This document shows positions 16,243 to 55,123 of a DNA stretch of 64,000 nucleotides, piece after piece. The DNA comes from an uncultured Chthoniobacterales bacterium. Its GTDB lineage: Bacteria > Verrucomicrobiota > Verrucomicrobiia > Chthoniobacterales > UBA10450. Made by a program: the position numbers and the translations under genes. The stretch is from positions 1 through 64,000 of the forward strand of contig CADCTA010000018.1 in NCBI GenBank assembly GCA_902805675.1, read 5' to 3'. The notes below the pieces were generated by a model that saw only the letters and a program-made list of their open reading frames with translations, searched no databases and had not been told where the DNA came from. How positions within the stretch are numbered: position 1 is the first letter of the stretch; the number at the start of each line of letters is the position of its first letter.

Positions 16243-16415
16243 CGCGGTCATCCTGAGCCGCGGAGACGGCGAAGGACCTCGCGCCGTCACATGGCGTGTT
16301 CGCGACCTCACATGCAGCGAAGAGGCCGTGCGCTGCTTTTTCGAATCGAAGGGCAGCGAAAGTCCTTTTCGCTGCGTGAGGTCCTTCGCCGTCTCCGCGG
16401 CTCAGGATGACCGCG
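16243..16415. repeat. Type B palindromic dispersed element, copy 1
   Basis: A perfect 38-bp inverted repeat: 16243-16280 (CGCGGTCATCCTGAGCCGCG then GAGACGGCGAAGGACCTC) and its exact complement at 16378-16415, with a 97-nt spacer. It sits between the convergent zinc-ribbon gene and ychF. It shares the terminal GTCATCC with type A but differs inside. Confidence 0.95.
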
Positions 16416-35227: not shown

Positions 35228-35566
35228 GAGCCGGGAAGGTGGCTTTGGCGGCGTAGCGCCGCAAGTTGTTTGGGCTCGGGCGCCTCGATGCGGATTCGAT
35301 CAGCGCGTACGGTCATCCTGAGGCGGCGAAGCGCGCCGAAGGACCTCACGTGCTCGCACGGCGTTTTAGCGAAATCGAGAGCGGCGGCGACGAAGCGAGC
35401 GCGGTGACGAGCAAGATCAAACACCGCGCGTGAGGTCCTTCGTCGTCTACGCGACTCAGGATGACCGTGAGAGAGGGCATAGCTATGCGAGAATGCGATT
35501 GCGCACGAGCGTCAGCGCCTGCCGTCGAGTTGATTTCACCGCCGCCTCTCGGATGATTGGTGCGCC
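35228..35566. other. Intergenic region amidase-valS
   Basis: 339 bp between divergent genes. It holds a type B element (35311-35466); the remaining 80-100 bp on each side must carry both promoters, but no confident -35/-10 pair is visible. Confidence 0.6.
35311..35466. repeat. Type B palindromic dispersed element, copy 2
   Basis: Arms GGTCATCCTGAGGCGGCGAA with GCGCGCCGAAGGACCTCACG (35311-35350) and the imperfect complement ending GACTCAGGATGACC (35429-35466), spacer 78 nt. Same design as copy 1, but the arms have diverged in the middle. Confidence 0.9.
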
Positions 35567-46236: not shown

Positions 46237-46983
46237 CTACAAGCGAACGAGCTCGGCCGATTGCGCCGGAATCCAGCCGCGCAACTCGTTGGGGAGCGCG
46301 ACGTACATCCAGTCGCCTCGCGTGCTGAGAACCTTGATCTCGCTCCCGGGCGGAAGCGTAAGGACTGTGTTCGCGTTGTCGGCTGTGGCGAGCCGCGCGT
46401 CCACTTTGTTGTCGATCACGATCGCAAGCGCCCGGCCGCGTGTGCCGCTCTCGAGCGCATAAGCGCAAGAGACGCCAACCACGCAGCTGAGCACCCCGAC
46501 TACGCACGCCGTGATCAACAGCACAGAGCGTCGACGGCGGAGGACGAGCGCGGCAGCTGCCAACGCCAGGACCCAGAAGCCGATCGTTGCTGTCACCACA
46601 TAGTGAGTGGTTGTCGCGCGGCTCGCGAAGGCTTCCCACCTACTCTTGCGAAGCTCGAGCGCCCGGGCTTTCTCACGCGCCAGGCGCACGTTCGCCGCTG
46701 CCTCCGGATGGCGCGGCTCCAGTGCGAGCGCGCGCTCGTAATTTAAAATTGCGCGCCCGAGGTCTCCGGCGCGATACCAGGCATTCCCCAGATTGTAGAA
46801 GACCGGCGCGCTCGTCGCGCCTGCCGCGACCGCCGTTTGGTATTTCTCCGCCGCTTCTTTGAACCGCCCTGCAGCGTACTCGGTGTTGCCATCGGCAAAC
46901 GCGTCAGCGCGCGCGTCACTGAGCATTGCCACCACGAGCAATACGCAGCAGCAAAGAATGCGGCTAAGTCGCTCGCCACTCAT
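46237..46983 (-). CDS. batE: BatE-like TPR and SH3 domain protein
   Basis: 248 aa. Signal/membrane segment near residues 8-27, two to three TPR units (FADGNTEYAAGRFKEAAEKY, APVFYNLGNAWYRAGDLGRA), two more membrane helices (VVTATIGFWVLALAAAALVL and LLITACVVGVLSCVVGVS), and a C-terminal bacterial SH3 (ADNANTVLTLPPGSEIKVLS, RGWIPAQSAELVRL). Domain order fits BatE of the Bacteroides aerotolerance cluster. Its start overlaps batD by 4 nt and it is the last gene of the Bat operon. Possible role in envelope stress; not demonstrated. Confidence 0.82.
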   Translation of the reverse strand: MSGERLSRILCCCVLLVVAMLSDARADAFADGNTEYAAGRFKEAAEKYQTAVAAGATSAPVFYNLGNAWYRAGDLGRAILNYERALALEPRHPEAAANVRLAREKARALELRKSRWEAFASRATTTHYVVTATIGFWVLALAAAALVLRRRRSVLLITACVVGVLSCVVGVSCAYALESGTRGRALAIVIDNKVDARLATADNANTVLTLPPGSEIKVLSTRGDWMYVALPNELRGWIPAQSAELVRL

Positions 46984-48818
46984 GCGCGCAGGTTCTCCAC
47001 CAACTCCAGAATCTCGCGCTGATTTTCGGGCGAGATGGTGTGCCCGCCATTGCGGCTGCCGCTGTAGCGCAGCTCATCGCTTTGCTCGAACAGCTGACGC
47101 AGCTGCGCGCTCTGCTGCTCATCCAGCCGGAACGCCGTCGCTGCTGTTTCCGCATCCACGAGGTTTGGGTCGACGTTCTTCGCCAATGCTGTTTTTAGCT
47201 GCACTGTACGCGACGCATCGGCGAGGTACTCGCGGGGGGCAGCGCCATTCGCGCGCAGCCGCCGCTCCAGCTCGGCAGCTTGGTGCTGCAGATCGGCAGT
47301 TCTTTGCGCGTCGCGATTTGCCAGCCGCCTCTGACGCATTCTCCACGCGACGAGACCGGCGAGCGCCGACAACGGCACCAATTGCGCGAGCCAGAAAGCT
47401 GGCCGCGCGTGGAGAGGCGCGAATGTCTGGCGCGCAGTCGGGCGCTCGCTCAGCTGATAAAGGATGTCGCGCTCCTGCGGCGCGGGGGTAGGAGTCGGCG
47501 CGATCGCGGGAGTCGCCGTCTGCGGAGCTGCTGCGGCCGCGGCGGGCGTTGCGGTCGGCGCTGCGCCGCCTTCGACACGAAGCGGGAGGTCGGCGCTACG
47601 CAATGAAACGTAAGTCTCTTTCACCGGGTCGAAGAACGTGAAGACGAGCGGCGGCATCTTGTCCTTTCGCTCCTTCGGACTCACGACGGTCTCGAAGGTT
47701 TTGGTGCCGCTGATCCCGACATCGTCGTCCTGGCTGAACTTGTCGGAGGGCGGATACTTGTGCCAGCCGGCCTCGTTCTCCAGCACCGGCGCAGTCACGC
47801 GGTCGAAGTTCCCGCGCCCGATAATCGCAGCCGTCACGGTGATGGGATCTCCGACCTGCACCTTCTTCGGATTCGCATCGCTCTTCATCGCGAAGGTGCC
47901 GACTGCTCCCCCGAAAGTCGGAGGTGCATTCGGCGGCAGCGGCTTCACTTCCACGGTTGTCGCTTGGCTCTTGAGGTTGATCTCCTTCGGCACCGAAGGG
48001 CTCAGGAACGGATCGTTTAATAACTGGTTCAGCGGATCGGACGGATCGTCGAACAAAGACCGTGGGAGGGTAGGACTGCGCGGCCCCCCACGCGGGACTC
48101 GCACCACCGGCTTGATCTCCGCCGGTCCGATCTCGAGCTTGCCCGCGCGCACCGGCGAGATGGCCGTTTTAAAGATGAACACCTGGTAGCTGCGGCCATT
48201 GATGGTCTCGATCGTTTGTCGCGGTTCCGGCATTTTCTGCGTGGTAAATCCCTGACCCGCGATCTGCATCCCGCTCCCGAGCGAATCAACCGGCGCGCGC
48301 ATGTTCAATCCCAGCCGGATCTGCACCGGAATCATCTCGCCGACGTAGGCGACCTGCTTCGGCAACACCATCTCGATGAAGCCGATCTTCGCCGGGTCCA
48401 CCGCGCCGGCATCGTCGCGGCCGCCGCCTCGACGGGAGGACCTGCCGGGCGAGTCCACCACATTGAGCGAGAGCGCCGGGGTCTTCATTGCTCTGCCGGC
48501 GACCTCCACAGTCTGCGGAGGGATAGTGAACGTCCCCGTGCGCAGCGGCATGATCGTGTAGTTGTAGGTGAAGCTGTAGCTCACGCTGAAATTCTGCATC
48601 TGATACTGCCGCGACACGCCCGCCGAGCGGATGTCGAGACCGTCGACGTTGATCTCGCCGGGCGGCTTCGGGTTCGACGCGCCCGTGACCACGATCTGTA
48701 GCTGAACCGGATTACCGAGCCCGGTCTCCGAGCTGTCGAGTACAGCGGTGACACTCGGTTGCTGCGCGAGGGCGACCGGGGCGCTCAGAAACAGCGCGAG
48801 CACCAGCCACACTGTCAT
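46980..48818 (-). CDS. batD: BatD-like membrane protein, start codon inside a type A repeat
   Basis: 612 aa from ATG 48818. A signal peptide (TVWLVLALFLSAPVALAQQ), repeated Ig-like beta domains of the BatD family (DSSETGLGNPVQLQIVVTGA, PLRTGTFTIPPQTVEVAGRA), one transmembrane segment near residue 500 (FWLAQLVPLSALAGLVAW) and a cytoplasmic tail. The frame is open upstream to an ATG at 48977, 4 nt after the batB-C stop, but that would translate the whole type A repeat into a 53-residue n-region before the signal sequence. ATG 48818 lies in the repeat tip (GAATGAC), so either way the repeat defines the N-terminus. Confidence 0.85.
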   Translation of the reverse strand: MTVWLVLALFLSAPVALAQQPSVTAVLDSSETGLGNPVQLQIVVTGASNPKPPGEINVDGLDIRSAGVSRQYQMQNFSVSYSFTYNYTIMPLRTGTFTIPPQTVEVAGRAMKTPALSLNVVDSPGRSSRRGGGRDDAGAVDPAKIGFIEMVLPKQVAYVGEMIPVQIRLGLNMRAPVDSLGSGMQIAGQGFTTQKMPEPRQTIETINGRSYQVFIFKTAISPVRAGKLEIGPAEIKPVVRVPRGGPRSPTLPRSLFDDPSDPLNQLLNDPFLSPSVPKEINLKSQATTVEVKPLPPNAPPTFGGAVGTFAMKSDANPKKVQVGDPITVTAAIIGRGNFDRVTAPVLENEAGWHKYPPSDKFSQDDDVGISGTKTFETVVSPKERKDKMPPLVFTFFDPVKETYVSLRSADLPLRVEGGAAPTATPAAAAAAPQTATPAIAPTPTPAPQERDILYQLSERPTARQTFAPLHARPAFWLAQLVPLSALAGLVAWRMRQRRLANRDAQRTADLQHQAAELERRLRANGAAPREYLADASRTVQLKTALAKNVDPNLVDAETAATAFRLDEQQSAQLRQLFEQSDELRYSGSRNGGHTISPENQREILELVENLRA

Positions 48819-48905
48819 TCCGACCGAAGCGAAGCGCAGTGGAGGAATCCCGCGGCTCCACCCACCGGTAGCGCCACGGGATTCCTCGACTTCGCTCGGA
48901 ATGAC
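48814..48905. repeat. Type A palindromic dispersed element, copy 5, inside the bat operon
   Basis: Ninety-two bp from GTCATTCCGACCGAAGCGAA to CTTCGCTCGGAATGAC, arms separated by about 17 nt. It sits between batB-C and batD, in a frame that stays open across it (reads VIPSEVEESRG...). Its tip supplies the proposed batD ATG. Confidence 0.95.
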
Positions 48906-48981
48906 GCGAGGCGGCGAATCCAGCGGCGTGACATGTGGAGCGCTGTTCGAAGCGGTGGGTGCAAGGGCGCGCGTCATCGGC

Positions 48982-51123
48982 TTACCAATCATTATAGACG
49001 CGCCGCGAAGCCTTGCGTTCATCCAGCTGCACACGCTGTTCTTCGTCGCGCATGGCCCGCAGAAGACGCTCGGCCTGCTGTGGGGTCATGCGTGCTTCTT
49101 CCATCGCCTCCGCTTCCGCGCCGGCCTCCGCGTTCTGCTCGGCTTGCTCCTGCGGCGCGCCCTTCACTTCACCTTCGAGCTTCTTCGCTGGTGTCGCGGA
49201 AGGCGTGCCCGTCGGCGGCGAATCGGAATCGCCACTCTCCCCTTCTCCTTCGCCCGGTGATGGCGACGGAGCCTGCTCCTGTTCGCCCGGAGTCGGCGAT
49301 GCGCCTTCTTCGTCGCCGGGTGATGCGCCGGCCTGCGGGCTTGGCGAAGCACCGGGCGACGGGGCGGGGGATGGCGACGGCGAGCCGCTCGGCTTTCCCT
49401 GTGGGGATGGAGACGGCGTTTGGCCGGGCTTTTCCTCTTCGCCAGAGCCCTGTTCCTTCTGCTCCGACTGATCCTGACCCTCCTCCGGCTTCTTGTTATC
49501 GCCGCTGCCGGACTGGTCCTGCTGTTGCTGCTGTTGTTGCTGATCCTTCCCCTGCTGGTCCTGCTTCTTCTGATCCTTCTTCGCCTGCTGGTTCGGAGAG
49601 GGCGAAGGCGTCGGGCTCGGCTGTTGCTCCTGCTGCTGCTTTAGCTCCTCGATCTTCCTTTTGACGAACTCGGCGTTCTCGTTCGCCTCCTTGCTCTCGG
49701 GTTCGATCTTCAGCGTGTGCTCGTAATGCTGCAGCGCGTTCTGCCAATCGCCGAGCTTCTTGTCGTTGCCCTTCTGCGTCTCGCCGCGCTGATAAAGTGT
49801 GTTGCCGAGATTGTAATGGCTGCGGCTTTGCAGCTGCCGGTCGGGCGAGAGGAGCGCCTGGCTAAACGACTGCAGCGCCTTGCTGTAATCCTTCATCTTG
49901 TAAGCGGCCGCGCCGGAATCGAAATGGAGCTTGTCGGCTGCGTGGGTGTTTGGGTGCTCCTTTAGCGTCTGCTGGAAGTGTTCGTAGGCCTCGGGGAAAC
50001 GCTCGTTACGGTAGGCTTCCAACCCCGGAGCCGCCGCGAGCGTGGCATGCGCGCCGAACATCAACACCGCCGCCGCGGCTGCTGCGGTTGCTTCCCGGCG
50101 GACCGGCGAGACGGCGCGTCGTCGTGCGGCTTTGCGCTCATTCATCAGCAGCGACGCTGCCAGCGCGAGCAACGCTGCGCCGAGTGGCCATTGATACCGC
50201 TCGATGGGCTGCCGCGACACGCGATCCTGGATGTCGCCGGCCTGCATCTTCGCGAGGCCCTGCTCGTAGAGCTGCTTCATGGTCGCAGGTCCGCCTGCGA
50301 GGTGGAGATAGGTGCCACCGGTCGCCTCAGCGATCTCGCGCAATCGTTTCTCGTCCAGCTTCGACTTCACGACCTGGCCGCTACCGTCCTTCACGAACGC
50401 TGTCGTGCCACCGGCGCCGGTCAGCGGAATCAACGATCCCTCCGGCGTCCCAACACCAATGGTGAAAATCTTCACGCCGCCATCCGACGCTGCCTTCGCC
50501 ACCTTGACGGCGTCGCCCGAGAGTTCCTCGCCATCCGTGAAGATGATGAGCGCACGATTGCCGATCGCCGACTGCCCAAAGGTGCGTGTGGCGAGTGTGA
50601 TCGCGTCGGCGATGTTCGAGCCGCCTTCCGGGATGATGCTGGTGTCGAGATCGTTCAACGATTCGACGGCCGCGTCATAGTCGATCGTGAGCGGCGCTTG
50701 CAGGAACGAGCGACCGGCGAACGCAATCAGTCCGATGCGATCGCCGCGGAGTTCGTTGAAGAGATCCTGCCCCGCCAGCTTCACGCGCTGGAGACGGTTC
50801 GGCGCGACATCGTTTGCCAGCATGCTGCGCGAGGTGTCGACCGCGACGAGCAGGTCGAGGCCTTTGCGTTTTACCTCCTCATAGCTGTAGCCCCAGCGCG
50901 GCTGCGCGAGGCTCAGGATCGCAAGCGTCACGCCGGTGAGGATCAATGCGAACCGCACCCGGCGGCGAAAAGGATTCACCGCGGATCCGAGTTGTGGCAG
51001 CAAGCGCGCCGAGACGAACTCGCGCAGCTTCGCCGCACTGCGCGCTTCGGCACGCATGAACAACAACCCGAGCACCGGCACGGCGAGCAAAGCCCAGAGC
51101 CAATGCGGTGCACCGAAACTCAC
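48982..51123 (-). CDS. batB: BatB-BatC fusion: von Willebrand A membrane protein with TPR and low-complexity tail
   Basis: 713 aa. N-terminal part is BatB: two membrane helices, a vWA domain with MIDAS motif DTSRSM (residues 96-101) and IFTDGEELSG, then a closing helix (YQWPLGAALLALAASLLMN). From residue 340 a second membrane helix and TPR repeats (EAYRNERFPEAYEHFQQTLK, LHFDSGAAAYKMKDYSKALQ) correspond to BatC. Residues 490-640 are Gln- and Pro-Ser-rich low-complexity repeats. In Bacteroides batB and batC are separate genes; here they are one. It overlaps batA by 4 nt. Confidence 0.88.
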   Translation of the reverse strand: MSFGAPHWLWALLAVPVLGLLFMRAEARSAAKLREFVSARLLPQLGSAVNPFRRRVRFALILTGVTLAILSLAQPRWGYSYEEVKRKGLDLLVAVDTSRSMLANDVAPNRLQRVKLAGQDLFNELRGDRIGLIAFAGRSFLQAPLTIDYDAAVESLNDLDTSIIPEGGSNIADAITLATRTFGQSAIGNRALIIFTDGEELSGDAVKVAKAASDGGVKIFTIGVGTPEGSLIPLTGAGGTTAFVKDGSGQVVKSKLDEKRLREIAEATGGTYLHLAGGPATMKQLYEQGLAKMQAGDIQDRVSRQPIERYQWPLGAALLALAASLLMNERKAARRRAVSPVRREATAAAAAAVLMFGAHATLAAAPGLEAYRNERFPEAYEHFQQTLKEHPNTHAADKLHFDSGAAAYKMKDYSKALQSFSQALLSPDRQLQSRSHYNLGNTLYQRGETQKGNDKKLGDWQNALQHYEHTLKIEPESKEANENAEFVKRKIEELKQQQEQQPSPTPSPSPNQQAKKDQKKQDQQGKDQQQQQQQQDQSGSGDNKKPEEGQDQSEQKEQGSGEEEKPGQTPSPSPQGKPSGSPSPSPAPSPGASPSPQAGASPGDEEGASPTPGEQEQAPSPSPGEGEGESGDSDSPPTGTPSATPAKKLEGEVKGAPQEQAEQNAEAGAEAEAMEEARMTPQQAERLLRAMRDEEQRVQLDERKASRRVYNDW

Positions 51124-52683: not shown

Positions 52684-53643
52684 TCATCGCACCGCCATGC
52701 GGCGCTCGCGTGCTTTGAAAAACGAACGCAGACCGGGCAGATAGTCACGCCCGGTCTGCAGCGAAATCGTATCGATATTGCTGCGATGCAGCGTGCGCTT
52801 CAGGTGCGCAGCTTGCGCTTCGACGAGCTCCGCGAAGTGCGTGCGGGTCGCGCGGTCAGACGTGTTGATCTCGATCTGCTCACCCGTCTCGGCGTCTTCG
52901 AGGGTAATGATGCCGACGTTCGGGAAAACCTTCTCGCGTTCATCCTGCACGTGGATCGCGATCACGTCGTGGCGTCGACCGCTGACGGCGAGCTCGCGCG
53001 AGAAATCGCCGGCCTGAAAGTCTGAGATGAAGAAGACGACCGCGCGGCGGCTGACGACCTGGTTCAGATACTGCAAGGCCAGCGCCGGATCGGTGCCGCG
53101 TTGTTGCGGCTCGAAAAACAGGATCTCGCGAATCAAGCGAAGGGTGTGCGAGCGGCCCTTCTTCGCCGGGATGTAGAGCTCAACTTTATCGGTAAACAGC
53201 AGCAGGCCGACCTTGTCGTTGTTCCTGATCGCGCTGAACGCCAGCAGACACGCGACCTCCGCTGCGAGCTCGCGCTTGGATTGCGTGGTGCTGCCGAAAC
53301 TGCCCGACGCGCTGACATCCACGACGAGCAGCACAGTCAGCTCGCGTTCCTCGGTAAACTTCTTCACGAACGCGGTGCCGAGGCGCGCGGTCACGTTCCA
53401 ATCGATGGCGCGGATCTCGTCGCCCGGCTGATACTCGCGCACTTCGTCGAAGTTCATGCCACGACCTTTGAAGACGCTGTGGTAGTCGCCCGCAAAGACG
53501 GTCTGCACGAGCCCTTTCGTTTTGATCTCGAGAGCGCGGATCTTCTTCAGAATTTCCGCGGGCGTTTGCTGCGCCTGGCCGCTGGAGCCTCCCCCGCCGT
53601 CATCCCGAGCGAAGCGAAGCGGAGTCGAGGGATCCCGTGGCAC
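52684..53643 (-). CDS. DUF58 protein of the Bat operon, N-terminus supplied by a repeat element
   Basis: DUF58 proteins carry a degenerate vWA domain and partner MoxR ATPases. The conserved core begins PAEILKKIRALEIKTKGLVQ and continues GDYHSVFKGRGMNFDEVREY, PGDEIRAIDWNVTARLG. Upstream of this there is no ATG/GTG/TTG in native sequence; the frame opens at GTG 53643-53641, which overlaps the stop of the GIY-YIG gene (TAGTG), and reads 16 residues (PRDPSTPLRFARDDGG) encoded by a type A repeat arm. 319 aa. Removing the 445-bp insert would instead join it to an ATG overlapping the moxR stop. Confidence 0.88.
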   Translation of the reverse strand: MPRDPSTPLRFARDDGGGGSSGQAQQTPAEILKKIRALEIKTKGLVQTVFAGDYHSVFKGRGMNFDEVREYQPGDEIRAIDWNVTARLGTAFVKKFTEERELTVLLVVDVSASGSFGSTTQSKRELAAEVACLLAFSAIRNNDKVGLLLFTDKVELYIPAKKGRSHTLRLIREILFFEPQQRGTDPALALQYLNQVVSRRAVVFFISDFQAGDFSRELAVSGRRHDVIAIHVQDEREKVFPNVGIITLEDAETGEQIEINTSDRATRTHFAELVEAQAAHLKRTLHRSNIDTISLQTGRDYLPGLRSFFKARERRMAVR

Positions 53644-54035
53644 TACCGAGAACCTCCCGCGGAACGGAATGCGTACATCTCATCAAACAAATTGCGCCAT
53701 TCGGGATTGGAGCGCGCGATCAGCAGTTCCTTCTTACTCCGGCTCCACCGCTTCAGCTGTTTCTCGCGCGCAATCGCGCTTTCGGGATCGGGATATGTCT
53801 CAAAGTGCACCAGCTTGTGTGCGTGGTACTGCTTCGCGAAAGCGCTGCCTTCACCGAGCGAATGCTCGCTGCAGCGACGCTCGAGGTCGTTCGTAACCCC
53901 GATGTACAACACGATGTGGCGATCTCCGTTGGTAAGCATGTACACGAAGTAGTTCTGATGTGTCATCGGGAGCTGCTCGCTTTCGCCACGGGATTCCTCG
54001 ACTTCGCTTCGCTGCGCTCGGAATGACGGCGGGGG
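53591..54035 (-). mobile_element. Split type A element carrying a GIY-YIG nuclease gene, inserted in the bat operon
   Basis: Terminal inverted repeats of 51 nt (53591-53641 and 53985-54035); 43 nt of each match type A arms (39 of 43 identical between them) and the outer 8 nt (CCCCCGCC / GGCGGGGG) are perfect. Between them lies a GIY-YIG gene instead of the usual 13-25 nt loop. No target duplication is obvious. It separates moxR from DUF58, neighbours in typical Bat operons. It preserves the chain of overlapping stop/start codons. The name mobile element is inference; no transposase is present. Confidence 0.75.
53643..53966 (-). CDS. GIY-YIG nuclease-domain protein within a palindromic element
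   Basis: 107 aa, a single GIY-YIG (UvrC N-terminal/YhbQ-like) domain: FVYML (GIY strand, residues 7-11), LYIGVTNDLERR (YIG plus Arg30), SAFAKQYHAHKLVHFE, IAREKQLKRW with the catalytic Glu68, and NPEWRNL. All residues expected for catalysis are present, so it should be active. The ATG overlaps the TGA of a 27-codon repeat-encoded leader (ATGA), and the stop overlaps the DUF58 GTG (TAGTG). Base composition looks lower in GC than its neighbours. Possible role: mobility or maintenance of the type A repeats; unproven. Confidence 0.9.
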   Translation of the reverse strand: MTHQNYFVYMLTNGDRHIVLYIGVTNDLERRCSEHSLGEGSAFAKQYHAHKLVHFETYPDPESAIAREKQLKRWSRSKKELLIARSNPEWRNLFDEMYAFRSAGGSR

Positions 54036-54045
54036 CGACGTCTCA

Positions 54046-55032
54046 TTATGGGACCGGCAACCCGGCGAAGATGCGCTCGACGATCTTCTCGCTCGTGATC
54101 GACTCCGCTTCAGCTTCGTAGCTGACGATGACGCGGTGACGTAGCACGTCCGTGCCGATGCTCTTGATGTCCTGCGGCGTGACGTAGCCGCGGCCGTTCA
54201 GGAAGGCATGCGCGCGCGCGGCGAGAGCGAGGAAGATGGTCGCGCGAGGCGAGGCGCCGTAGCGAATCAGGCCGTCGAGCTTCAGGTTGTACGTCGCCGG
54301 TTCGCGTGTCGCCCAGACGACATCGACGATGTAATCCTTTACGCGGTCGTCGATGTAGATGCTGTTCACGACGGAGCGCGCGTTGATGATCTGCTGCGGA
54401 TCGACGACCGGCGTAACGCTCAGGTTCGGTGCTGACGTCGCCATCAGATCAAGGATGCGGCGCTCCTCGGCCTTCGCTGGATAGCCGACGTTCAGCTTCA
54501 ACATGAAGCGGTCGAGCTGCGCCTCCGGCAGCTGATACGTGCCTTCCTGCTCGAGCGGGTTCTGCGTCGCGAGGACGAGGAATGGATCGGAAAGGGGATA
54601 CGTCGTGTCGCCGATCGTGACCTGGCGTTCCTGCATCGCTTCAAGCAATGCGCTCTGCACCTTGGCGGGCGCGCGGTTGATTTCATCTGCCAGGATCAGG
54701 TTCGAGAACAGCGGGCCAAGTTTGGTCGTGAACTCTCCGCTGCGCGGATTGTAGATCAGCGTTCCGATCAGGTCGGCGGGCAGAAGATCGGGCGTGAACT
54801 GCAAACGCTGGAAGCCCGTTTGAATCGCGGCCGCCATCGTTTTCACCGTCAGCGTCTTCGCCAAACCGGGCACGCCTTCGAGCAGGATGTGACCGTTGGC
54901 GAGCAAGCCCAGCAGCAGGCGATCGACGAGATATTTCTGGCCGATCACAACGTGGCCGACCTGCTCCCGGAGGGCAGGAATCCATTGGCCGAGCTCCTGC
55001 ACTTCGCGGGTGATTTCCTGCGTGGACTTCAT
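54046..55032 (-). CDS. moxR: MoxR family AAA+ ATPase
   Basis: 328 aa chaperone-like ATPase that activates vWA-containing partners. Walker A EGVPGLAKT (residues 52-60), Walker B LILADEINRAPAKVQSALLE, sensor VLATQNPLEQEGTYQLPEAQ, and a C-terminal lid (YGASPRATIFLALAARAHAF). ATG 55032. It heads the Bat operon; its TAA stop overlaps an ATG (TAATG) that now begins the 27-codon leader of the inserted element. Confidence 0.95.
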   Translation of the reverse strand: MKSTQEITREVQELGQWIPALREQVGHVVIGQKYLVDRLLLGLLANGHILLEGVPGLAKTLTVKTMAAAIQTGFQRLQFTPDLLPADLIGTLIYNPRSGEFTTKLGPLFSNLILADEINRAPAKVQSALLEAMQERQVTIGDTTYPLSDPFLVLATQNPLEQEGTYQLPEAQLDRFMLKLNVGYPAKAEERRILDLMATSAPNLSVTPVVDPQQIINARSVVNSIYIDDRVKDYIVDVVWATREPATYNLKLDGLIRYGASPRATIFLALAARAHAFLNGRGYVTPQDIKSIGTDVLRHRVIVSYEAEAESITSEKIVERIFAGLPVP

Positions 55033-55123
55033 AAGAATGGTTGAGACAGGAGCAGCGGGGGAATGTTCGATCAAACTCTTCCCTCGCACGTGCTTCGTCG
55101 GGCCGCGAGCACACGCAGACGAA

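Follow-up and report, generated by a model that had tools for sequence, protein, structure and literature searches.

CGTC-like palindromic repeats in a Verrucomicrobiota operon: probable read-through in batD, a start codon for a DUF58 gene, and a candidate GIY-YIG mobiliser

Several classes of short palindromic repeats in bacteria provide a background for the locus described here. Repetitive extragenic palindromes (REPs) with a CGTC tag were defined by Di Nocera et al. in 2013, and include the dRS3 repeats of Neisseria and the elements RPE-4 and RPE-6 of Rickettsia (PMC3733652). The CGTC REPs apparently have no dedicated transposase, and the number of tyrosine transposase genes found flanked by CGTC repeats was zero (PMC3733652). 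In the REPIN-RAYT, or REPtron, systems of the GTAG REPs, high-copy dimers of short palindromes coexist with a small nuclease-type gene that is framed by the same palindromes and is presumed to be their mobiliser (PMC3116915, PMC3733652). Finally, palindromic repeats translated in frame inside protein genes are known from the Rickettsia palindromic elements (cited in PMC3733652).

The repeat considered in this study (type A) lies at positions 48814-48905 of the window, the whole stretch of 64,000 nucleotides that was analysed. It has the length of 92 nt and is found at the 5' end of batD, between batB-C and the signal peptide of BatD, just where an earlier note on this DNA had placed it. It consists of two CGTC-like REP stem-loops joined as an inverted dimer, namely a first half-unit, GTCATTCCGAGCGAAGTCGAGGAATCCCGTGGC, at 48873-48905 on the minus strand, and an inverted second half-unit, GTCATTCCGACC..., at 48814-48856 on the plus strand, with its tag outward. 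The BLAST search of its own genome (a 3.5 Mb assembly in 125 contigs) yielded 76 matches, reverse-strand matches of the same palindromes included, and the tip motif occurs 168 times in the genome compared to zero for a reversed-pattern control; thus the repeat is far beyond chance. It was observed throughout the taxonomic family f1, and no match was seen in other sampled families of the order. The genome itself groups with the Chthoniobacterales, as the nearest named loci, L031-L034, come from MAGs of this order and match the query in the same stretch of residues and with the same identities as the loci of its own genus. The alignment of 49 extracted copies reads GTCATTCCGAGCGAAGTCGAGGAATCCCGTGGC, then about 17 nt of variable spacer, and finally GCCACGGGATTCCTCCACTGCGCTTCGCTTCGGTCGGAATGAC. 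Each half-unit is a stem-loop of its own, of the form GTC-ATnnn-loop-n'n'n'AT, with full stem complementarity in 166 of 173 halves (mean 65 and maximum 79 upon shuffling) and with covariation among seven stem types (TCC/GGA, CCC/GGG, TCT/AGA, GTC/GAC, and others). The inner gap measures 28-31 nt in 66 of the 73 outward-tagged pairs, and hence the copies are mostly inverted dimers. Nearly all copies have GTCAT at their tips, preceded in many but not all of them by C or T.

Several of these features are common to the CGTC-tagged REPs, namely the terminal CGTC/TGTC tag, the AT-opening stem maintained by pairing, the prevalence of inverted dimers, and the location of some copies within ORFs and at ORF N-termini (PMC3733652). 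However, the stem has 5 bp instead of 8-9 bp, the loop about 12 nt or more instead of 4-5 nt, and the tail is CCC(GTGGC) instead of CCA; in addition, Verrucomicrobiota are absent from the phyla listed for the CGTC REPs (PMC3733652), and some copies here carry a GIY-YIG gene, unlike the described CGTC REPs. Since stem, loop, and tail are unlike those of the four families of Di Nocera et al., the batD-type repeat is, judging by its sequence, a related, new long-loop family outside these four. The likeness to the REPIN-RAYT systems consists in the high-copy dimers and in the framed nuclease-type gene, whereas the nuclease and the tag differ, with an HUH tyrosine transposase and GTAG there, and GIY-YIG and GTCAT here.

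At the batC-batD junction, the earlier note had described a reading frame that stays open through the repeat, and this is indeed the case: beginning at the batB-C stop, the minus-strand frame continues across the repeat, where it reads VIPSEVEESRGATGGWSRGIPPLRFASVGMT, into the signal peptide. Its openness is by itself unremarkable, as a random 31-codon frame at about 63% G+C would be free of stops in roughly 40% of cases. ATG 48977 is situated, again as noted before, 4 nt past the stop of batB-C, a gene encoding VWA and TPR domains (ORF 48982-51123, minus strand). In the sampled relatives with BatD, the frame opens shortly after the batC stop and encodes a short signal peptide at its beginning; apart from the locus L019, their batC-batD junctions showed no repeat. 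Same-genus relatives show TGGTAGCCCGATG or TGGTAGCACCGATG in place of the TGGTAAGCCGATG of the window, and the repeat-free relatives have CCGATG at the same place as the batD start in the window. Because of this match at the same position in repeat-free relatives, the ATG at 48975-48977 (minus strand) is the likely native start of batD, upstream of the repeat, and the most likely full batD frame, whose product is assigned to BatD by Pfam and which includes the repeat, extends over 46980-48977 on the minus strand. A start at 48977 leaves an unusually long segment ahead of the hydrophobic core, and its ribosome-binding site is weak.

The earlier note had preferred as the start another ATG at 48816-48818 (minus strand), within the sequence GAATGAC at the tip of the repeat, and had suggested that the repeats act as movable start codons. 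In favor of this reading, a signal-peptide-like stretch, MTVWLVLALFLSAPVALAQQ, follows immediately after ATG 48818 in the same frame, and all but a few tips in the genome read ATGAC outward. The comparison with relatives, proposed in the same note, nevertheless points to a conserved start just after the batC stop, upstream of the repeat, and this start is retained in the window. Moreover, ATG 48818 is paired at the base of the hairpin stem (unpaired probability at most 0.002) in a repeat region that folds with z = -4.6, no Shine-Dalgarno sequence was found for it, and the n-region that would begin there is without positive charge. On the genome scale, the TGA of ATGAC closes the +1 frame at once, so that one outward frame is always shut and the proper null expectation for the ATG frame is 1 in 2 rather than 1 in 3. 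Over 154 tips, frames of at least 200 codons were the ATG frame in 20 cases and the other open frame in 17 (p = 0.74), and an apparent excess of the ATG frame among the first 87 tips (20 versus 8 at 100 codons) disappeared in this larger set; the tip ATG as a general movable start was thus rejected. The choice of ATG 48818 as the best start had been a matter of judgement and did not hold, and it is improbable that BatD uses this codon with the tips serving as movable starts generally. What stands of the earlier claim is that a repeat shapes the 5' end of batD. Alternatively, the repeat could be an untranslated 5' insertion, with BatD starting downstream of it in native sequence and the repeat, if active, functioning as an RNA hairpin. 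This has been inferred for many REPs annotated in ORF N-termini (PMC3733652), and a parallel is provided by L019, from another genus (genome G021), where a related diverged dimer occurs at the same junction, nearer the batC stop; since this repeat interrupts the batD frame with a stop codon, BatD there must start after it. In the window, however, the conserved ATG is kept within an intact open frame, and only weak starts (GTG at 48812) are available between the repeat and the hydrophobic core, which makes this alternative rather improbable here. The batC-batD junction has apparently been hit twice.

Given the start conserved upstream, the position of ATG 48818 buried in the stem, and the absence of a tip-ATG excess, translation probably passes through the batD repeat, which would then form an in-frame insert. 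This would resemble the Rickettsia palindromic elements, from which the batD case would differ in its N-terminal location before a signal peptide and in its occurrence in Verrucomicrobiota.

A second element in the same operon consists of two palindrome arms (53599-53642 and 53992-54027) and a small GIY-YIG nuclease gene of 107 aa between them (53643-53966, minus strand), downstream of a moxR-type AAA ATPase gene (54046-55089, minus strand). Its half-palindromes are 357 nt apart compared to the usual 28-31 nt, and the gap is taken by the GIY-YIG gene. The arm at 53599-53642 encodes the N-terminus of the adjacent DUF58 protein, PRDPSTPLRFARDD. The DUF58 gene (52684-53643, minus strand) starts with GTG 53643, its start and the GIY-YIG stop overlap as TAGTG, and a Shine-Dalgarno-like GGGAGG (53653-53658, minus strand) is positioned upstream, inside the end of the GIY-YIG gene. 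Between GTG 53643 and the conserved DUF58 residues TPAEI, no other in-frame ATG, GTG, or TTG was found in the window, and, as read from the sequence, the arm gives DUF58 its only usable start. The same combination of a stop/start overlap with an arm-encoded N-terminus is observed in four genomes from three genera, that is, in the window and in G011, G015, and G036, the overlaps in the last three being TGATG and TAATG; a Shine-Dalgarno sequence precedes the DUF58 start in the window, G011, and G015. The start supplied by the element is the loop-side GTG or ATG at the GIY-YIG stop, not the tip ATG. Accordingly, of the earlier proposal that two copies provide coding or start sequence in one operon, the DUF58 part is supported for both coding and start sequence, whereas the tip-ATG start of batD is not. 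At the DUF58 site, the GIY-YIG and DUF58 identities are only partly discordant, which concerns vertical descent versus repeated insertion, and the G036 copy looks degraded. A separate observation comes from genome G029 (L044), where DUF58 has an arm-like N-terminus, MGPSTAPAKAGSARDD, without an accompanying GIY-YIG gene; this looks like loss of the element with retention of its arm. The moxR-DUF58 gap is longer, with extra sequence, at the loci L038, L040, L043, and L062, and on account of these longer gaps in several relatives the junction seems to be insertion-tolerant.

The GIY-YIG domain of the window gene scores 58.1 bits against a curated cut-off of 22.6. An initial scan showed inverted arms around 32 of 78 small GIY-YIG rows and in 0.4% of random windows (repeat-dense own-genome loci), a count that includes duplicate loci and one masked-base artefact and that became 20 of 24 versus 0 of 49 upon cleaning. 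These latter figures refer to GTCAT-type arms under a strict rule, found at 20 of the 24 members of one GIY-YIG clade and at none of the 49 genes outside it (Fisher test, 2.5e-14, with related genes treated as independent); arms scoring at least 14 are present at 23 of the 24 clade members. Phylum-wide, arms were detected at three of five strong matches to the clade and at none of the weaker relatives. In other phyla, inverted palindromes with a score of at least 20 frame 9 of 14 GIY-YIG relatives, from Azospirillum, Rhizobium, Sinorhizobium, Shinella, Neorhizobium, Sphingobium, Novosphingobium, Aeromonas, and Neisseria, and most of these palindromes open with CGTCATCC or CGTCATTCC, as do the CGTC REPs. 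Among controls drawn from 50-kb stretches of seven of these replicons, none of 188 genes (from five replicons) and one of 6000 random windows reached this score, so that the framing is above both chance and control genes. The palindrome-linked GIY-YIG genes of all these phyla form one clade with support 0.98; the wider clade also contains members without detectable arms (L130, L223, L224, and the genes from Photobacterium and R. tumorigenes). On the plasmid p3 of Azospirillum lipoferum (L251), a GIY-YIG gene flanked on either side by CGTC-type REP dimers lies between sufB and sufC, within an operon. In most genomes, solo dimers far outnumber the GIY-YIG copies.

Palindrome linkage of GIY-YIG genes in general was considered and rejected, as the link with GTCAT arms occurs in a single clade only. 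Other GIY-YIG clades have other palindromes (CCGCGTAAAAGGCT..., TTCACCCCGTGAG...) or none, and the unrelated palindromes around them may represent parallel systems. Small GIY-YIG genes framed by the unrelated palindromes CCGCGTAAAAGGCTTCGCCTCACGCGG and TTCACCCCGTGAG were seen at L127, L128, L134, L181, and L199. Stand-alone GIY-YIG proteins (UPF0213; PDB 1zg2 and 1ywl) are similar to the palindrome-linked ones in having a single GIY-YIG domain and about 100 aa, whereas the palindrome-linked genes constitute a distinct clade, and small GIY-YIG genes of the same family outside it are without these arms. A search of the open literature yielded no work joining GIY-YIG with repetitive extragenic palindromes or MITEs; subscription journals and preprints were mostly outside the search, and an earlier description is possible.

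The genome under study has three GIY-YIG genes of this clade with three arm types, represented by 169 (type A), 14 (type B), and 3 (CTC type) half-units in the 362 kb searched, a sample chosen around type A copies. A second palindrome type in the window, GTCATCCTGAGCCGCGGAGACGGCGAAGGACCTC, is located at 16243-16415, where its arms are 98% complementary, and at 35428-35467, and arms of this type also frame a GIY-YIG gene on contig C54 of the same genome (L109).

The linkage and the co-segregation of arm type with the nuclease suggest that the GIY-YIG clade may be the mobiliser of the palindromes. The chief competing view of mobility is that the GIY-YIG genes, whose domain is also known from homing endonucleases, are homing-type parasites that have settled in the spacers of pre-existing REP dimers, which are themselves moved by something else. 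The window gene does reside exactly in a dimer spacer, which it extends to 357 nt, and the four DUF58-site copies belong to one clade, as befits a site-bound lineage. On the other hand, the three clade members of this genome have three different arm types even though type A accounts for most half-units, and across phyla only a single clade shows the linkage; we regard the parasite reading as unlikely, while giving it appreciable weight. Mobilisation by RAYT (HUH, Y1) transposases, as for the GTAG REPs, with the GIY-YIG linkage being secondary, would draw on the two Y1_Tnp genes of the genome. Neither of them has arms nearby, for which reason RAYT was rejected as the mobiliser; together with the lack of tyrosine transposase genes flanked by CGTC repeats (PMC3733652), this renders the RAYT explanation very improbable.

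We thus return to mobilisation by the GIY-YIG clade and combine it with the data on batD and DUF58 into a joint reading, in which we have moderate confidence. The batD repeat would be a mobile palindromic element of the non-autonomous kind, built as an inverted dimer with outward tags, one copy of which entered the 5' end of batD, downstream of the conserved start and before the signal-peptide core. As the insertion is in frame, translation of BatD would most likely still begin at ATG 48977, coupled to that of batB-C, and the protein would carry about 31 repeat-encoded residues ahead of the signal-peptide core. In the full element, the two halves of the same palindrome would enclose a small GIY-YIG nuclease gene; upstream of DUF58, the end of this gene would provide the ribosome-binding site, and the arm the start and the first codons. 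The GIY-YIG clade may mobilise this class of palindromes, as RAYT is thought to do for the GTAG REPs.

The CGTC-type palindromes, with dRS3 of Neisseria and the RPEs of Rickettsia among them, are widespread short repeats of bacteria, and a nuclease clade framed by such palindromes would allow the way they spread to be tested directly. Two routes by which repeats may become protein-coding are suggested by this operon, that is, read-through of an insertion, as is probable for batD, and an arm-supplied start codon, as in DUF58. In a wider interpretation, for which we see about even chances, a stand-alone GIY-YIG clade, distributed from Verrucomicrobiota to alphaproteobacteria and Neisseria, would be the dedicated mobiliser of a CGTC REP super-family, whose elements would spread in operons, be tolerated since most frames through them are open, and could give the next gene a new start and N-terminus.
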